Source: a virus. Taken from it: 21,320 bases of DNA. The stretch spans positions 1 to 21,320 of the IMG/VR virus record IMGVR_UViG_3300027849_000577; one strand, 5' to 3'. The position numbers were made by a program, and so were the translations under genes. Of the stretch, positions 6,237 to 20,442 are shown piece after piece; the first letter of the stretch is position 1, and each line of letters opens with the position of its first letter. Below the pieces are notes generated by a model. It worked only from the letters and a program-made list of their open reading frames with translations, was not told where the DNA came from and did no database searches.

Positions 6237-7214
6237 ATGGCAAATTTAGCAGAAATTAGAGCAAAACTATCCGCAATGGAATCGAAAGGTTCTGGCAACA
6301 AGCAACAATCGGGCGGCGACAACGCCATTTATCCACACTGGAATATCGACGAAGGAACATCAGCTGTTCTCAGGTTTCTACCTGACGCAGATGTAGACAA
6401 TACGTTCTTTTGGCAAGAAAGACAAATGATTCGTTTGACTTTCCCAGGTGTAAAAGGTGGAGAGATGAAGCCTGTAACAGTACAAGTACCTTGTGCAGAA
6501 ATGTATGGAGACACTTGTCCAGTATTAACTGAGGTACGTCCTTGGTTTAAAGATCCAAGTCTAGAAGACATGGGCAGAAAGTATTGGAAAAAGCGTTCAT
6601 ATATCTTCCAAGGATATGTAACTGAAAACCCACTAAGCGAAACGGCACCTGAGAATCCAATCAGACGTTTTGTTATATCACCTCAAATCTTTAACATTAT
6701 TAAGTCGGCACTTATGGATCCAGATATGGAAAACATGCCTACTGACTATATGAATGGTACAGATTTCAGAGTAATGAAAACAACTAAAGGTCAATATGCA
6801 GACTACAGTACATCAAAATGGTCTCGTAAAGAACGTGCATTAGATGAAACTGAACTTGCATCTATTGATACAAATGGTCTTCACAACCTTGCAGACTTCT
6901 TACCTAAGCGTCCAGGTGCAGATGAAATTAACGCAATTAGCGAAATGTTTCAAGCATCAGTTGACGGTGAATTGTATGATGTCGAAAGATGGGGTAACTT
7001 CTACAAGCCTTATGGCGTAGATGTTCCTGCAACTGCAACACAGTCTACTACAGCACCAGTGCAAACTGCGGCTCCAGTAGCGGCTCCAGTAGCGGCTCCA
7101 GTAGCGGCTCCAGTAGCAGAAGCGGCTCCAGTTGCTCCGGCTCCAGTAGCGGCAGAAGGCGATGCGAAACCTAGTGCAGATGACATTCTGAACATGATTA
7201 GAAACCGTTCTTAA
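6237..7214 (+). CDS. 32: Single-stranded DNA-binding protein gp32
   Basis: A 325-residue gp32 that coats single-stranded DNA and organises replication and recombination with UvsX/UvsY. The start at ATG 6237 is chosen because AAGGAG lies 10 nt upstream; the in-frame ATG at 6210 has no such site. Marine gp32 features are seen: N-terminal cooperative region (1-25), then the aromatic OB core (SAVLRFLPD, FFWQERQMIRL, GRKYWKKRSYIFQGYV). The Cys region VPCAEMYGDTCPVL keeps only Cys86 and Cys94; the fourth T4-type zinc ligand is Leu97 and no equivalent His is apparent. A hinge of AAPV repeats (about 278-305) separates the core from the tail SADDILNMIRNRS. It is followed 10 nt later by uvsX. Confidence 0.95.
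   Translation: MANLAEIRAKLSAMESKGSGNKQQSGGDNAIYPHWNIDEGTSAVLRFLPDADVDNTFFWQERQMIRLTFPGVKGGEMKPVTVQVPCAEMYGDTCPVLTEVRPWFKDPSLEDMGRKYWKKRSYIFQGYVTENPLSETAPENPIRRFVISPQIFNIIKSALMDPDMENMPTDYMNGTDFRVMKTTKGQYADYSTSKWSRKERALDETELASIDTNGLHNLADFLPKRPGADEINAISEMFQASVDGELYDVERWGNFYKPYGVDVPATATQSTTAPVQTAAPVAAPVAAPVAAPVAEAAPVAPAPVAAEGDAKPSADDILNMIRNRS
7068..7115 (+). repeat. Four perfect tandem copies of a 12-bp repeat in gp32
   Basis: GCGGCTCCAGTA is repeated four times without mismatch, in frame, encoding AAPV units. After a 6-bp interruption a fifth copy follows with one change (7122-7133), then a partial copy near 7140-7151. The unit length keeps the frame, so copy-number change would only alter the length of the gp32 hinge. 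Confidence 0.95.
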
Positions 7215-11392: not shown

Positions 11393-12460
11393 ATGTCGGG
11401 GATGACTAATATGACAAACTTGAAGAAAAACAAACTAAGCTATGTAAAGATTAAGGCTGGTACTTACCGTAAAAACGATATCGTTGATACAGTATTTCCC
11501 ATCATTAAGCCACTTAACATTGGCAAGAAAGGCGCATTCATTACTGTAAACGGTAGTGAAGTAATGGGAGACCAGTTCGCTAGTATAAGAGTACTAATTG
11601 AAGATCCAACAATGGATTTAGAATATGTAACTCCTAGTGTATATGCAGATCAACCAAAAATTGACCTGGAGCCTAAGAAAGAAGAGAATGACGAAGAAGC
11701 TATTGAGCGTATCAGAGAACGTTTTGATATCCTTGATAGAATGACACATGCTGTAGCAGAAGGTACAGTACGTGGTATGATTGTTAGTGGTCCTCCAGGA
11801 GTTGGTAAATCTTATGGTGTAGAAACTGTACTAGAAGATTACGATATGCTTACTGAGGTTGCTGGCAAGCCTGCAAGAACTGAAGTAGTAAAAGGTTCGG
11901 TAACACCGATTGGTTTGTTCCAAACACTTTATAACAATTCATCTGCTGGTAACATACTAGTATTTGATGATTGTGATAGTGTGTTATTTGATGAAGTATG
12001 TTTGAACATGCTTAAAGCAACTTTGGATTCAGGCAAGAAGCGTTACATTACTTGGAAGTCAGAATCTAACGCATTGCGAAGAGAAGGCATTCCAGACAGA
12101 TTTGAGTTCAAAGGTGGTTGTATCTTTATTACTAACGTTGATTTTGAGAACGTTCGTAGCAAGAAGATTAAGGATCATTTGGCGGCATTGATGTCTAGGT
12201 GTCACTACTTGGATCTTACAATGAACTCTACAAGAGATAAGTTCTTGAGGATTAACCAGATTGTTAAAGATGGTATGCTTGATGAATACAAGTTCGGCGA
12301 AGATGGTGACACGGAAGTCATTAGCTTTATGACCGAGAACCAAGATGCTCTTAGAGAGATTAGTTTGCGAATGGTTTTGAAGATTGCGGATCTTAGAAAA
12401 ATGGATCCTGCTAACTGGACTAAACTTGCAAGAACTACTTGTATGAAAGGTACAATATAA
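11393..12460 (+). CDS. AAA+ family ATPase
   Basis: A 355-residue AAA+ ATPase. An N-terminal non-ATPase part (1-105) includes the beta-rich segment AFITVNGSEVMGDQFASIRV. The ATPase shows Walker A GPPGVGKS (133-140), Walker B NILVFDDCD (187-195), a sensor-1-like Asn in GGCIFITNVDF and a possible arginine finger in LMSRCH. The phage partner is unknown; marine T4-like phages often carry such a gene with replication genes. Three in-frame ATGs (11393, 11402, 11411) are possible; the GGGG at 11398-11401 could serve the third, at 11411. It is driven by two consensus promoters and followed by hairpins and a terminator, so it forms its own transcription unit. Confidence 0.92.
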   Translation: MSGMTNMTNLKKNKLSYVKIKAGTYRKNDIVDTVFPIIKPLNIGKKGAFITVNGSEVMGDQFASIRVLIEDPTMDLEYVTPSVYADQPKIDLEPKKEENDEEAIERIRERFDILDRMTHAVAEGTVRGMIVSGPPGVGKSYGVETVLEDYDMLTEVAGKPARTEVVKGSVTPIGLFQTLYNNSSAGNILVFDDCDSVLFDEVCLNMLKATLDSGKKRYITWKSESNALRREGIPDRFEFKGGCIFITNVDFENVRSKKIKDHLAALMSRCHYLDLTMNSTRDKFLRINQIVKDGMLDEYKFGEDGDTEVISFMTENQDALREISLRMVLKIADLRKMDPANWTKLARTTCMKGTI

Positions 12461-12543: not shown

Positions 12544-12576
12544 GAAGCCCGGATCCCCTCCGGGCTTCACCTTTTT
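12544..12576 (+). terminator. Rho-independent terminator after the AAA+ gene
   Basis: GAAGCCCGG (12544-12552) pairs perfectly with CCGGGCTTC (12560-12568) around a 7-nt loop, followed after ACC by five T residues (12572-12576). It is GC-rich against an AT-rich background. It insulates the receptor gene from upstream transcription. Confidence 0.88.
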
Positions 12577-12599: not shown

Positions 12600-12627
12600 T
12601 TGACATCTAGTGTGCTGAGTGTATAAT
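12600..12627 (+). promoter_or_regulatory. Consensus promoter for the TonB-dependent receptor gene
   Basis: TTGACA (12600-12605), 16-nt spacer, TATAAT (12622-12627). Expected start near 12634, only about 25 nt before the ATG. It lies directly after the terminator, so the receptor has independent transcription. Confidence 0.9.
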
Positions 12628-12632
12628 TAGTA

Positions 12633-12648
12633 TTGTGTCATAACACAA
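12633..12648 (+). promoter_or_regulatory. 5'-terminal hairpin adjoining the receptor ribosome-binding site
   Basis: TTGTGT (12633-12638) pairs with ACACAA (12643-12648) around CATA. It would be at the very 5' end of the mRNA, and its last two bases are the first of the AAGGAG ribosome-binding site (12647-12652), so it could stabilise the RNA or modulate initiation. Confidence 0.5.
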
Positions 12649-12657
12649 GGAGAAAAT

Positions 12658-14331
12658 ATGAACGAACTAATAAACCTTTGGAACAAACACACATTGAAGA
12701 TTACAGGCGTAATAGTACTGCCTTTAATCCTAGCGTTTGGTATTTCTAAAGTGCAAGCAGAAGAAAGTGAAATAGAAGTAATTACTGTAGTTGCCCAGCA
12801 AGTACAGAAGATTGAAACGGACCCAGTCATAAGCACTAGATTGATAAGTGCAATAATGCCTGCGTTCACATATAGCCCAGGCGGCTATGGCGGCTTTATA
12901 GGTTTCAATGAGCGTGGAGCTCAAACGGTCCACACCACAGTGTACACAAATGGCGTACCAGCAAACGAGCCCGGGTCGGGTTGGTATAACTTTGGACATG
13001 AAATGGTGTCCGGTGAATCCGTGAGAATTATCTCTGGAGCAAACGGAGTACTATATGGTTCAGGCAGTATTGCTGGAACAGTACTAATTGAAGATGTTAT
13101 TGACTCAGGTGTAACTGTTAGGACAGAAGGTACAAAGCCTTCATACCTCAGACTAGCACCAACTAACAATATTGAGTTTGTTAAGTTTAAGTCAAACAAT
13201 AACTTTAGTGCCCGTAATGATAATACAGAATATGATGAGTACGACATGCAACAAGCAAAAGTATCCGTTGATGCAGGCGACTGGACATTCGACGGTAAGA
13301 TTGCACAGTATGAGTACGACTATGATAATTGTTATACAGCAAACTTCAGTACATCAAATGCATGTGTAGAAGACGGCGACCGTTATAACTTTAGTATTAG
13401 AAACGACTATCTTACATTAGGTAGATCATACGTTGACAGTCAGTATTATACTGAAGGGTCAGAGACTTACAGTAATGAAAGTCACAGGAACTTCATTAGG
13501 ATTGCAGAGCATAAGGATTTAAGTAATGCAGTTAACATTGACTTTGGTATAGATGCAGAGCAACTGTACTATGCAACACAATCAGGAACAACAGTTAAAA
13601 CATACGATGACGATAACTATGGAGCATTCCTAAGTATCAATGCGTCAGCAGTATTTGATTATAACTTTGGTTTTAGATTGGGCAACGATGGGCAAAATGC
13701 ATTAAGATTCGGTATAGCATCAGGACAGTTTTATTTAAATGTAGGCAACAGTTTTAGAAAGCCTAACTTATATGAAAAGTTTGGTGACGATTGGGTACTA
13801 GGTAACGCAGACCTGAAACCAGAAGAAGGTATAGGATACGAAGTTGGCTTCGGCGCAATTCAGTTATTCATGTACGATTTCTCTGAGACTATTGAATATC
13901 AGTCAGGCTTTATGTTAGCCGATGTATACGTCAAACCACAGTACTACAACGCAGGAGACTTCACTACACAGGGCTTTAGGTATATGCAAGAGTTTGGTGC
14001 ATTTAATGTTATGTTAAAGTACACAGACACCGAGCAACCAAGAGTAGCAAAGTATGCCGGAGCAGTTAGTTGGAAACAACGTTACGGTAAAAATGAGTTC
14101 CAGATGCAGTATGCAGTTAATGTAGACAGGTCACCAAGTCCGTATGATGTAATTGATGGACCGTACTTGCCGGACATGAACAAGTTAAACTTATATCTTA
14201 CTAGGTATATAAACGAACAAGTAACACTTTCGTTGAAGGTTGAGAATGCCTTAGACGAAGAAGTTGAGATTGTTCCTTTTTATTCTAACCGTGGAAGAGA
14301 AATTAACTTGACATTAGGCTACAACTGGTAG
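12658..14331 (+). CDS. Phage-encoded TonB-dependent outer-membrane receptor
   Basis: A 557-residue receptor of the BtuB-like type. The N-terminus is a signal peptide: Lys/His-containing n-region, hydrophobic GVIVLPLILAFGIS (17-30), cleavage probably after KVQA (34). A TonB-box-like IEVITVVA follows (39-46). The plug (about 60-146) has NERGAQTVHTTVYTNGVP and VRIISGANGVLYGSGSIAG, the typical plug end motif. The rest is beta-barrel, with the SFRKPNLYEKFGD / GNADLKPEEG signature near 360-390 and the C-terminal VENALDEE motif ending in GYNW, a terminal aromatic suited to BAM insertion. Substrate is unknown (cobalamin, siderophore or other). It has its own promoter and AAGGAG site. It could aid nutrient uptake or block other phages; both are inference. 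Confidence 0.93.
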   Translation: MNELINLWNKHTLKITGVIVLPLILAFGISKVQAEESEIEVITVVAQQVQKIETDPVISTRLISAIMPAFTYSPGGYGGFIGFNERGAQTVHTTVYTNGVPANEPGSGWYNFGHEMVSGESVRIISGANGVLYGSGSIAGTVLIEDVIDSGVTVRTEGTKPSYLRLAPTNNIEFVKFKSNNNFSARNDNTEYDEYDMQQAKVSVDAGDWTFDGKIAQYEYDYDNCYTANFSTSNACVEDGDRYNFSIRNDYLTLGRSYVDSQYYTEGSETYSNESHRNFIRIAEHKDLSNAVNIDFGIDAEQLYYATQSGTTVKTYDDDNYGAFLSINASAVFDYNFGFRLGNDGQNALRFGIASGQFYLNVGNSFRKPNLYEKFGDDWVLGNADLKPEEGIGYEVGFGAIQLFMYDFSETIEYQSGFMLADVYVKPQYYNAGDFTTQGFRYMQEFGAFNVMLKYTDTEQPRVAKYAGAVSWKQRYGKNEFQMQYAVNVDRSPSPYDVIDGPYLPDMNKLNLYLTRYINEQVTLSLKVENALDEEVEIVPFYSNRGREINLTLGYNW

Positions 14332-14337
14332 TATAAT
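14308..14337 (+). promoter_or_regulatory. Consensus promoter for uvsW inside the receptor 3' end
   Basis: TTGACA (14308-14313), 18-nt spacer, TATAAT (14332-14337). The -35 is inside the last codons of the receptor gene and the -10 directly follows its stop. Expected start near 14344, leaving an 18-nt leader with GAGG before ATG 14362. Confidence 0.82.
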
Positions 14338-16328: not shown

Positions 16329-17081
16329 ATGAGTTTAGATAAAGACATAGAAAAGATGACGCAGAAACTGAAAGGTAAAAAAAGGCGTTTTAGAATTGAA
16401 GCAGGATACCGAGGTGGCGAAGTCGGAATTGGTAAAGTTAATGCAGACTTTGTGGATCATTTTATAAACCCAGAAGATGGTGATGGCGACTTAATAGATT
16501 TCGTTACCAGTTTTGATTGGGATGAAGTAGACGAGTCAATACCAGTACCATACGAAGACTTTGAATCGTGGACAGAAACAACTGAAATTGAACACCTAAA
16601 TGGCGCATACGCTGACGGGCAGTGGAGTTACGAAGAAGTTCCTGCAGATGGTAGCGACGATTATGCGTATGAAACTGTAATTGATTTTGATGCTTATCAT
16701 TTGTATGGCAGAGAAGCATATATGGATGATAAGAAGCCAGAAGACATGACCAATTATAAACCAGTGTTACAATTCCACAGTGGAGAGAAAGGCGGATTTG
16801 GTGCATGGTTTGTTGAAACAGTAGGCGAAGATTTTAACCCTAAGAAAGTAGCATTTAGTTCTGTTGAATCTCAGGTAGCTGAAATAGTTCAAGACATGTG
16901 GTATGATAAAGAATTGATTGACAAAGATTATGATAATTGTGATACTACTGGTAAAGGCTACTATGCAAGTGTAGGTTATATGAATATGAAATGGCATGAC
17001 TCAGAAGAAAAATACACTGAAGAGTTTTTTACAGAAAATGAAATTTGGGAATGTTACGAGGATGAATTATTAGATGAGTAG
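16329..17081 (+). CDS. Hypothetical highly acidic protein
   Basis: A 250-residue protein, very rich in Asp, Glu, Tyr and Trp. The N-terminal 25 residues are basic (MTQKLKGKKRRFRIEAGYRGG), followed by long acidic stretches (FDWDEVDESIPVPYEDFESW; DNCDTTGKGYY; YEDELLDE), so charge is strongly polarised. Such DNA-mimic-like composition is sometimes seen in anti-restriction or nucleic-acid-mimic proteins, but nothing specific supports that here. AGGAG precedes ATG 16329. The end overlaps the apt start by 8 nt. No recognised domain. Confidence 0.82.
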   Translation: MSLDKDIEKMTQKLKGKKRRFRIEAGYRGGEVGIGKVNADFVDHFINPEDGDGDLIDFVTSFDWDEVDESIPVPYEDFESWTETTEIEHLNGAYADGQWSYEEVPADGSDDYAYETVIDFDAYHLYGREAYMDDKKPEDMTNYKPVLQFHSGEKGGFGAWFVETVGEDFNPKKVAFSSVESQVAEIVQDMWYDKELIDKDYDNCDTTGKGYYASVGYMNMKWHDSEEKYTEEFFTENEIWECYEDELLDE

Positions 17082-17628
17082 TTATAATATCGATTTAAAA
17101 GATTGTATTAGAACTGTACCAAACTTCCCGATACCTGGAATACAGTTTAGAGACATAACTAGCCTCATAGAAAATCCATCGGCATTTAATAAATCTCTAC
17201 TAGACTTAACATCGTTAACAATGAGCTTCGGCGCAACTAAAGTGGTTGGCATCGAAAGTAGAGGGTTTGTGTTTGGCACACCAGTTGCCAGAGATTTAGA
17301 CTTGCCTTTTATAATGGCTCGTAAGCCTGGCAAGTTACCTAACCCAACACACAAACGTGATTTTGATTTAGAGTATGGTAGTACAAGTTTAGAGATACAA
17401 AAAGTTACTGACATAAACGAGTATGACAAAGTTGTTATTGTAGATGATTTAATTGCAACAGGTGGTACAGCAATAGCCTGTGCAGACTTAGTACATGAAT
17501 GTTTTGATGTGCCTAAAGAAAATATCTTAATATTGGCTGTAATAGACTTGCCCAGCTTAGAAGGAAGTGCTATAATAGAGAAACACGGTTATAGTGTAAA
17601 TACATTAATTGAATTTGAAGGTGAATAG
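17074..17628 (+). CDS. apt: Adenine phosphoribosyltransferase
   Basis: A 184-residue cytoplasmic enzyme converting adenine and PRPP to AMP and pyrophosphate. Family features are all present: FPIPGIQFRDITSLIENP (18-35), VVGIESRGFVFGTPVA (57-72), the flexible-loop and hood region ARKPGKLPNPTH, YGSTSLEI (101-108), and the PRPP-binding loop VVIVDDLIATGGTA (120-133). Bacterial Apt is typically about 180 residues, so this is full length. It starts with ATG at 17074 inside the end of the acidic gene and overlaps by 8 nt the start of a nucleosidase-like gene that would release adenine, so the two may act in sequence. Confidence 0.95.
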   Translation: MSSYNIDLKDCIRTVPNFPIPGIQFRDITSLIENPSAFNKSLLDLTSLTMSFGATKVVGIESRGFVFGTPVARDLDLPFIMARKPGKLPNPTHKRDFDLEYGSTSLEIQKVTDINEYDKVVIVDDLIATGGTAIACADLVHECFDVPKENILILAVIDLPSLEGSAIIEKHGYSVNTLIEFEGE

Positions 17629-18181
17629 TATTAAAGACATTATTTTAATAGCATTGGAGTCTGAAGCTCCTGAAATGCAGAGTTGGGATAACGTGTTCTT
17701 TACGGGTGTAGGCAAAGTTAATGCCGCCGTAAGAGCATCAGCATTAATAACAGAACACAAGCCAACAAGAGTTTGGAACTTTGGTACAGCAGGCGGAATT
17801 AATCCTACATGTAAAGACCTAGTTGAAGTTAGTAACTTTGTTCAACGTGACATGCGGTGCTGTGAACTAGGATTTGACTTAGGCATGACCCCGTTTGAAG
17901 ACTATATAACAATTAGTTTTGACAACCCAGACGAAGGATTAACATGCAGTACAGGCGACAACTTTGTTGATAATCCTGACTTAGAGTTACCTGCAGATGT
18001 TGTAGATATGGAGGCGTATGCTATCGCTAAGGCTTGCCAGTATCATGGGGTAGACTTTAGATGTTTTAAATATATAAGTGATAGTGCCGATGAAAATGCA
18101 AATGCTGAATGGCATGAGACAGTTTCTAACGGCGAACCTTATTATATACAAGCCTATACGGAGAATGATGATGGACAGTAG
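17621..18181 (+). CDS. MTA/SAH nucleosidase-like (purine nucleosidase family) protein
   Basis: A 186-residue protein of the PNP/MTAN fold, shorter than E. coli MtnN (232 residues). GTG 17621 is chosen over TTG 17609 because the hydrophobic first strand SIKDIILIALESEAPE then begins normally. Family hallmarks: Glu13/Glu15 near the N-terminus, TGVGKVNAA (28-36), WNFGTAGG (52-59), STGDNF (110-115), the catalytic-region VVDMEAYAIAK with Glu131, and YISDSAD with Asp154. MTAN cleaves methylthioadenosine or S-adenosylhomocysteine to adenine. The substrate-loop region between 75 and 105 is shortened, so specificity is uncertain. Overlap with apt by 8 nt supports a joint salvage function. Confidence 0.85.
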   Translation: MNSIKDIILIALESEAPEMQSWDNVFFTGVGKVNAAVRASALITEHKPTRVWNFGTAGGINPTCKDLVEVSNFVQRDMRCCELGFDLGMTPFEDYITISFDNPDEGLTCSTGDNFVDNPDLELPADVVDMEAYAIAKACQYHGVDFRCFKYISDSADENANAEWHETVSNGEPYYIQAYTENDDGQ

Positions 18182-19430: not shown

Positions 19431-20092
19431 AAACGAAAATAATTAGTTATAGCCAGACCCCTAAAGCAGAAGTGCCACAGGATCTGTTAGATTTGGTCGC
19501 CTATTGTGCAAGAGTAAGCAACCCAGAGAATCAGAATAACACTGCAACAAACGATAAACTAGTAAAGTATCTTATTAAGCACAAACACTGGAGTCCATTA
19601 GAGATGGTAAGTGTTTGTATGGAAGTAGAAACAACCAGAGACATTGCTAGACAACTGTTGAGACACAGAAGTTTTAGTTTCCAGGAGTTTAGTCAACGTT
19701 ATGCAGACCCTACAAAGGATTTAGAGTTTGAAATTAGACAAGCACGATTACAAGATACTAAGAATCGTCAAAACAGTATTCCTACAGATGACGGATTGCT
19801 TAATCATGCATGGGCAGACCTGCAACAGAAGGTAATTGACACCGCCTTAGAAGCATACAATTACGCTATAAGCAACGGTATTGCTAAAGAGCAGGCAAGA
19901 GTAGTACTACCGGAAGGAAACACACTAAGCAGACTGTACGTTAACGGCACATTGCGTAGTTGGATACATTACATTGAATTACGTGGTGCTAATGGCACAC
20001 AGTTAGAGCATATGGAGTTAGCATGGGCAGTAGCAGACGCTATTACACATATATTCCCAATGGCGGCTGAGTATTCGGGGAAGACCGAATGA
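19427..20092 (+). CDS. thyX: Flavin-dependent thymidylate synthase ThyX
   Basis: A 221-residue FAD-dependent enzyme making dTMP from dUMP with methylenetetrahydrofolate and NADPH. The ThyX signature RHRSFSFQEFSQRY lies at 79-92, matching RHRxxSxxExSxRY; Gln replaces the more common Asn. HWSPLEM (54-60) corresponds to the HxSPxEH-like segment, and LRSWIHYIELRG with LEHMELAW forms the C-terminal substrate-binding part. It supplies dTMP for phage DNA synthesis, suited to the AT-rich genome. The start ATG overlaps the previous TGA; its own stop overlaps the next start. Confidence 0.96.
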   Translation: MKTKIISYSQTPKAEVPQDLLDLVAYCARVSNPENQNNTATNDKLVKYLIKHKHWSPLEMVSVCMEVETTRDIARQLLRHRSFSFQEFSQRYADPTKDLEFEIRQARLQDTKNRQNSIPTDDGLLNHAWADLQQKVIDTALEAYNYAISNGIAKEQARVVLPEGNTLSRLYVNGTLRSWIHYIELRGANGTQLEHMELAWAVADAITHIFPMAAEYSGKTE

Positions 20093-20442
20093 CACAGAGA
20101 AGCAAGATTCATTTAGGCTTGCTAACACTAGCGATAATTCTAGTGTTAGCATTCTTTACTACTGATGCAAAAGCAACAACTTATGTCGCATACGCACATG
20201 AGCTACCATTCAAAGACGCTAAGTCTCAGGCTGAAACACACAGTTTGCGTTTAGGATATATGGCTAACGGCATGTATATTGAAGCAGGTCCTATGACCGG
20301 CGGACATAGTTTGGAGATGGGTTACAAGGTAAAGAAAGGAAATTGGATCTTTAAGACCAAGTACGAAAGTGAAGAAACTAAGTACACCACTCTGTTTAAG
20401 AGTAAAATAGAAACTGAAGTAATTTACAAGTTCGGAGATTAA
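20089..20442 (+). CDS. Small exported, beta-rich envelope protein
   Basis: A 117-residue protein with a clear signal peptide: basic TQRSK, hydrophobic LGLLTLAIILVLAFFTT (9-25) and probable cleavage after DAKA (26-29). The mature part of about 88 residues is a series of alternating strands (TYVAYAHEL, HSLRLGYM, MYIEAGP, HSLEMGYKV, WIFKTKYES, ETEVIYKFGD), like part of a small outer-membrane beta-barrel or a periplasmic beta protein. The final residues are KFGD, not a perfect terminal-aromatic barrel signal. It overlaps thyX (ATGA) and the next gene (TAATG). Its role at the envelope is unknown. Confidence 0.82.
   Translation: MTQRSKIHLGLLTLAIILVLAFFTTDAKATTYVAYAHELPFKDAKSQAETHSLRLGYMANGMYIEAGPMTGGHSLEMGYKVKKGNWIFKTKYESEETKYTTLFKSKIETEVIYKFGD
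20121..20150 (+). repeat. Perfect 11-bp inverted repeat in the signal-peptide region
   Basis: GCTAACACTAG (20121-20131) and CTAGTGTTAGC (20140-20150) are exact reverse complements around CGATAATT. In RNA this is an 11-bp hairpin with an 8-nt loop, located in the codons of the hydrophobic core of the signal peptide. No T-run follows directly, so it is not a standard terminator. Confidence 0.9.

Follow-up and report, generated by a model that had tools for sequence, protein, structure and literature searches.

A BtuB-like TonB-dependent receptor gene next to uvsW in a clade of jumbo phages

We analyzed an IMG/VR record with a length of 21,320 bases (the window). Its genes for a terminase, a gp32-type single-stranded DNA-binding protein (SSB), UvsX, UvsY, UvsW, and ThyX are phage genes. 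Just upstream of uvsW lies a gene for a TonB-dependent receptor (TBDR) whose relatives form a BtuB-like phage family. The features that we will discuss are:

11393-12460, + strand: AAA ATPase gene (phrog_1250), the upstream neighbour of the receptor gene
12544-12568, + strand: intrinsic terminator with a 10-bp stem and a CCTTTTT tail, which closes the upstream AAA ATPase unit
12600-12627, + strand: promoter P1 (TTGACA-N16-TATAAT) of the receptor gene
12647-12652, + strand: ribosome-binding site AAGGAG, seen in the sequence
12658-14331, + strand: TBDR of the BtuB-like phage family, 557 amino acids
12658-12759, + strand: signal peptide, amino acids 1-34, ending in KVQA (assigned by eye; AxA-like ends align in the relatives)
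12769-12795, + strand: TonB box EIEVITVVA, amino acids 38-46 (the family form is E-I-E-E-V-V-V-V-A)
12805-13092, + strand: plug domain, amino acids 50-145 (PF07715 covers 50-141)
13108-14325, + strand: predicted 22-strand beta barrel, amino acids 151-556, followed by the terminal Trp 557
14308-14337, + strand: promoter P2 (TTGACA-N18-TATAAT) of uvsW, which spans the receptor's stop codon
14362-15819, + strand: UvsW-type DNA helicase gene, the downstream neighbour of the receptor gene
17074-17628, + strand: adenine phosphoribosyltransferase gene, which overlaps the next gene
17609-18181, + strand: nucleosidase gene (PNP_UDP_1; MTA/SAH nucleosidase-like) with a TTG start

A few other features of the window deserve mention. 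The SSB gene encodes, at 6957-7195, a C-terminal linker of Ala-Pro-Val repeats (APVAAPVAAP...), with high local GC content. The overlapping genes at 17074-18181 could be an adenine salvage pair. The gene at 20089-20442 encodes 117 amino acids with a signal peptide and is likely to be a second outer-membrane protein. It has a weak match to a cyanophage outer-membrane barrel family (PF24653, E = 0.03) and also matches phrog_417, and it is rich in SNPs relative to the near-identical phage at locus L003 (5 in 354 bases). We found no support for identifying the AAA ATPase gene as CobS; it belongs to phrog_1250, whose function is unknown.

We confirmed that the open reading frame at 12658-14331 encodes a complete TBDR. 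All of the parts that a sequence-only reading of this DNA had listed are present: a signal peptide, a TonB box, a plug with GSGSIAG (amino acids 134-140, inside the plug), LKPEEG, and a C-terminal Trp. By eye, the signal peptide's cleavage site is ..GISKVQA^EESEIEV, and most of the relatives retain a GGAG-type ribosome-binding site. Of the two Pfam families that had been proposed as a check, Plug (PF07715) matches the receptor at 33.9 bits, above the cutoff of 23.9, and was found in 28/28 relatives, but a profile search gave no sequence-level match to the barrel family (PF00593). In one subgroup of relatives (L033-L037 and L049), the C-terminal Trp is replaced by Lys. The same reading described the protein as short, perhaps with trimmed loops. 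This is true of the 557-residue receptor but is a local feature, as the relatives range from 521 to 677 amino acids. The extra length of the longer relatives sits in the predicted extracellular loops L5 and L8.

An AlphaFold2 model of the receptor that was built with 42 relatives (pLDDT 80.8, pTM 0.80) contains a plug and 22 predicted strands, with longer loops alternating with short turns, which is the architecture that had been anticipated. When this model was compared to folds in the PDB, the 11 top matches were B12 transporters (BtuB from E. coli and proteins from B. thetaiotaomicron), and BtuB ranked first (E = 1.1e-18, TM-score about 0.7). Receptors for siderophores, haem, zinc, or copper had fold scores nearly equal to BtuB's. 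At the sequence level, a profile of 28 relatives was compared to all PDB sequences, and BtuB alone matched (E = 2.5e-15); the family profile matches BtuB-type receptors, while FepA, CirA, and FhuA were unmatched. NCBIfam's equivalog model for BtuB (TIGR01779) has weak matches in 17 of the 28 relatives (best E = 8.9e-16), and the receptor itself falls far below its cutoff (25.7 vs. 599.7 bits). Resemblance to BtuB in fold and profile is not enough to assign the substrate.

We also compared individual residues. The calcium ligands in the extracellular loops of BtuB include D179, Y229, and D230. The invariant E191 of the phage receptor aligns with D179, and the positions of Y229 and D230 are just partly kept. 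A pair of cysteines (Cys225-Cys236) and conserved acidic loops are peculiar to the phage receptor, relative to BtuB. Cobalamin riboswitches are common, yet not universal, upstream of btuB. The leaders of five receptor loci had no match to the cobalamin riboswitch in Rfam.

The receptor is encoded by the phage. Besides its phage neighbours, an independent contig shares the junction (L001/L003, 99.4% identity across 9.5 kb), and a homologue of the receptor gene lies directly upstream of uvsW in 36/57 uvsW loci of related phages from IMG/VR, some of which are cut by contig ends. This is the slot in other phage genomes that the sequence-only reading had suggested searching for. Because the junction recurs on an independent contig and in these 36 loci, we excluded a chimera with host DNA at the receptor. 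The base composition of the window has no break and no anomaly there. (In two of the uvsW loci, L054 3074-4987 and L055 268-2181, the match to UvsW is interrupted by about 400 bases near residues 240-249, with a short repeated overlap; this might be an intron, an intein, or a frame problem.)

By their TerL and UvsW proteins, the nearest annotated phages are the PA5oct-type Pseudomonas phages (Wroclawvirus, Arenbergviridae), the Sinorhizobium phage Phosso, and the Agrobacterium phage Atu_ph07, whose genomes are about 285-490 kb. The large receptor-bearing contigs reach 250-340 kb. Given these sizes, the receptor-bearing phages are a clade of jumbo phages within the wide T4 superfamily; describing the phage as T4-like was too narrow. 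The window probably covers just a part of a jumbo-phage genome. Given the TBDR, the host is presumably Gram-negative and has TonB, and the phage relatives suggest that the samples are mostly marine. Neither of the two isolates that we checked, Phosso and the PA5oct-type phage Deifobo, has a TBDR annotated beside uvsW.

An alignment scan identified 199 viral loci with relatives of the receptor, and we kept 80 of these. In a tree with eight bacterial TBDRs for comparison, the 50 non-redundant phage receptors group together as a single clade (support 100/100), whose stem is 2.9 changes per site long; bacterial sampling in this tree is thin and the branches are long. A search of genome contigs with the single sequence or the alignment, with a reach limited to short peptide patterns, found no close bacterial relatives. 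Among annotated phages, the only tblastn matches were to bacterial btuB genes in contaminated records. Each of 24 contigs, including one of 340 kb, contains exactly one TBDR.

On the UvsW tree, a few changes account for the distribution of the receptor slot. (L129 and L133, whose matches are split, were misfiled as outside the slot in this count.) One small group (L030-L032, L047, and L056) lacks the gene and has a terminator and a promoter directly before uvsW. We read this as an early gain and a later loss of the receptor, but the group may instead represent an older empty site. Together, the synteny, the family tree, and the UvsW tree contradict the idea of an autonomous foreign cassette. 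The receptor is instead an old gene of the whole jumbo-phage clade.

Parts of the cassette idea did hold up. The terminator upstream of the receptor is at 12544-12568 and the gene has its own sigma70-type promoter, P1, as had been claimed. In 36/49 non-redundant relatives, P1 is kept no more than 100 bp from the start and with at most one mismatch, as compared to 0 for in-gene controls. Insulation is one-sided, though: there is no terminator after the receptor, and the promoter of uvsW (P2) is embedded in the last 24 bases of the receptor gene and the first bases past the stop codon. The TTGACA of P2 encodes a conserved Leu-Thr and the TATAAT comes after the stop codon. P2 is kept in 37/50 relatives and is missing where the receptor is not ahead of uvsW. 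Since the receptor gene has its own P1 and we found no terminator between it and uvsW, it thus appears to be separately promoted and to read into uvsW.

Five sites in the window match TTGACA-N16-18-TATAAT perfectly, where 0.02 would be expected, and each of them is on the + strand. These precede the SSB gene, the AAA ATPase gene (two sites), the receptor, and uvsW. The receptor shares its type of promoter with the SSB gene and uvsW, which suggests early or middle expression. In ten contigs that we scanned, the motif is confined to one strand per contig, which is the receptor's strand in the contigs where the receptor was located. The genes behind P1-type promoters in the 340-kb contig formed no clear functional class.

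The most conserved regions of the receptor are the TonB box and the plug. The mean entropy of the TonB box (amino acids 38-45) is 0.76 bits, versus 1.85 for the signal peptide and 1.83 for the linker, and the mean entropy of the plug (amino acids 61-145) is 0.88, versus 1.57 for the strands. In 71 unique relatives, the TonB box is a conserved island with an invariant E40. With the topology taken from the model, conservation extends to two predicted extracellular loops, L2 and L9 (entropy of 0.79 and 0.74), and loops L5 and L8 contain insertions of about 60 columns. For pairs of receptors with enough change, dN/dS is about 0.07-0.15; in most cases, this is higher than the value for uvsW by a factor of two to five. 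The receptor is under purifying selection.

We propose that the receptor is a TonB-dependent importer from the BtuB branch that brings in a scarce cofactor during infection. Judging from sequence and predicted structure, we put the probability of this at roughly 0.55. The receptor would be exported and inserted into the host's outer membrane, where it would couple to the host's TonB-ExbBD. (A search of 12 phage contigs for the C-terminal domain of TonB gave no match, so the host's TonB would be used.) The plug and the conserved loops would bind the scarce ligand; the conservation of L2 and L9 fits what we would expect of a ligand site. The receptor would then bring the ligand into the periplasm, and the host's transporters would complete its uptake. 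In this way, a limiting cofactor, such as a corrinoid or another metal chelate, could keep entering the cell throughout the long infection by a jumbo phage. The sequence-only reading proposed import, superinfection exclusion, or competition for TonB. The conservation of the TonB box and the plug favours import over exclusion, and it leaves competition for TonB standing.

The main rival to import is superinfection exclusion or receptor substitution, in which the phage's receptor would replace or dilute a host TBDR and so bar other phages or bacteriocins. TBDRs such as BtuB, FhuA, and FepA are established as common receptors for phages and colicins, and the receptor gene is a hotspot of diversity, in keeping with exclusion. 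Between the near-identical phages L001 and L003, the receptor holds 25 of the 45 SNPs in 9.5 kb (p about 1e-8), while uvsW and the AAA ATPase gene have 0. The nearest neighbours of the receptors often disagree with the nearest neighbours of the corresponding UvsW proteins: L089 and L066 have 99% identical UvsW but 64% identical receptors. These sequence comparisons suggest that receptor alleles are swapped among phages. Frequent swapping of alleles is more common in surface proteins that are in an arms race than in housekeeping importers, which counts against import, and the changes in length also affect L5 and L8, which are predicted to be extracellular. On the other hand, a passive blocker would not require a TonB box, yet the TonB box is highly conserved, and several of the extracellular loops show conservation as well. 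Also, the proteins that are known to act in exclusion are either small lipoproteins or located in the inner membrane, and they are cheaper than a 557-residue barrel. We consider exclusion to be unlikely, but it is a serious contender.

Another rival involves nucleosidases. In a second arrangement, found at 12 loci (L103 7426-9959 and L080, L095, L098-L102, L123, L131, L132, and L134), the receptor gene is directly downstream of a nucleosidase from the MTA/SAH-nucleosidase superfamily, and the pair is inserted in reverse orientation relative to the baseplate-type genes that flank it. (Judging from their sequences, we take these flanking genes to be of the T4 gp6, gp25, and gp5 types.) Because the contigs with the second arrangement do not include uvsW, these phages may have a second copy of the receptor. 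The nucleosidase in the window is homologous to the one in the second arrangement and lies 3 kb downstream of the receptor, and a nucleosidase is present in 49/90 slot loci, counting redundant loci. The receptor might therefore take up adenosyl or nucleoside-type compounds as part of a salvage pair, with the nucleosidase passing adenine to the phage's phosphoribosyltransferase. The direct adjacency in 12/12 loci and the overlap of the window's nucleosidase with an adenine phosphoribosyltransferase fit with this proposal. However, the 12 loci represent about three receptor lineages and one place of insertion, and the proximity in the main arrangement may be due to chance. Furthermore, nucleosides usually enter cells via porins or Tsx, not via TBDRs. 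We think that nucleoside uptake is improbable. A metabolic partner gene in the second arrangement does count in favour of import in general.

Alternatively, the receptor might tie up the host's TonB and thereby starve the host's TBDRs or block TonB-dependent phages and colicins. The conserved TonB box, a strong consensus-type promoter, and a phage that provides no TonB of its own are all compatible with this kind of competition. But a TonB box and the fold would suffice for that purpose, which leaves the conserved plug and loops and the full barrel unexplained, and we view this as quite improbable. Finally, the receptor might seem to be an assembly artefact or a bacterial gene that is exchanged passively and does nothing lasting for the phage, given that marine bacteria are rich in TBDRs and IMG/VR does include contaminated contigs. 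The synteny and selection data refute this: 50 receptors form one long-stemmed clade and keep to the same slot across dozens of contigs, which come from different metagenomes, with purifying selection and conserved promoters.

If the receptor is an importer of a cofactor, what is its substrate? Corrinoids are the leading candidate, albeit a tentative one. The three largest receptor-bearing contigs that we tested encode a KedN5-like radical-SAM protein with a B12-binding domain; in one of the three, the B12-binding domain is below the domain cutoff, and this link is drawn from few contigs and has no TBDR-free control. Along with the kinship to BtuB, these proteins point to corrinoids. The failure to reach the equivalog cutoff, the lack of a riboswitch, and the class Ia ribonucleotide reductase argue against corrinoids. 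We had considered a B12-dependent ribonucleotide reductase as a reason for import, but this is unsupported: the enzyme that we saw is class Ia and iron-dependent. The radical-SAM loci are L153 (G002:C1:112650), L152 (G003), and L154 (G005), and at L153, the radical-SAM gene adjoins an NAD-synthetase-like gene.

A broader scenario is more speculative still. The phage lineage would have owned an outer-membrane importer of cofactors since its common ancestor, with alleles that are swapped like those of a surface antigen. The importer would supply cofactor-dependent enzymes, such as the B12-type radical-SAM proteins, would be part of a two-gene module with the nucleosidase in some lineages, and would make energised uptake across the outer membrane, under the phage's direction, a core rather than an accessory function of infection.

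Phages are known to enter cells by way of TBDRs, and the auxiliary metabolic genes of phages act mostly in the cytosol. A conserved TBDR that is owned by phages and equipped with a promoter would imply that infecting phages remodel uptake across the host's outer membrane, and such a lineage would tie phage biology to how B12 and iron are supplied in the ocean. Whether it serves nutrient import or superinfection exclusion is a distinction that can be tested directly.

A phage-encoded TBDR is no novelty in itself, as the Mar_Mega_1 and Skadi proteins and phrog_5687 precede our family. In the literature that we searched, which did not extend to subscription papers or preprints, we found no description of a phage family from the BtuB branch or of its slot, promoters, selection, or second arrangement. 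phrog_5687 (PHROGs v4, function unknown) has a weak match to the receptor (E = 5e-7), at 13726-13854 and 12901-13092 of the window, and it matches 18 of the 28 family members that we checked. Because its profile and that of the Plug family have matches in the same three control genomes, phrog_5687 is probably a family of TBDRs that lacks this annotation. It differs from our family in that it has 760 positions, short stretches of which are all that match, and no functional name.

A putative TBDR of the SusC type is encoded by the megaphages Mar_Mega_1 and LR745206 and was proposed to raise the uptake of carbohydrates (PMC9723777). As in our proposal, this is nutrient uptake during infection by a very large marine phage, but the SusC-type TBDR was reported in two genomes from a different phage lineage, and we found no analysis of its family, promoters, or selection in that report (PMC9723777). 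In BFVD, the only clear TBDR match to our model was an 805-residue "SusC" from an uncultured marine phage (UniProt:A0A8D9FQQ5; 10% identity in the structure alignment), which is probably the Mar_Mega_1 protein. Its kinship to our receptor is at the level of the fold alone. Our tblastn search gave no match to it among annotated phages.

Pelagiphage Skadi is another marine phage with a TBDR-related annotation, but its authors group the gene with those of the virion and take it to suggest that TonB is the adsorption receptor (PMC10504331); our tblastn search of annotated phages gave no such relative. The Llp lipoprotein of phage T5 jams the host's FhuA and is, like our receptor, a phage-encoded outer-membrane factor that involves a TBDR, but Llp is a small periplasmic lipoprotein and not itself a receptor (PMC9586334). 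Another close known system is BtuB itself. The phage receptor shares with BtuB the plug and 22-strand barrel and the TonB box, and BtuB is its top match by both profile and fold. The phage receptor differs in being about 18-20% identical to BtuB, in having a mature protein that is about 70 residues shorter, and in being carried and promoted by a phage, without a riboswitch.
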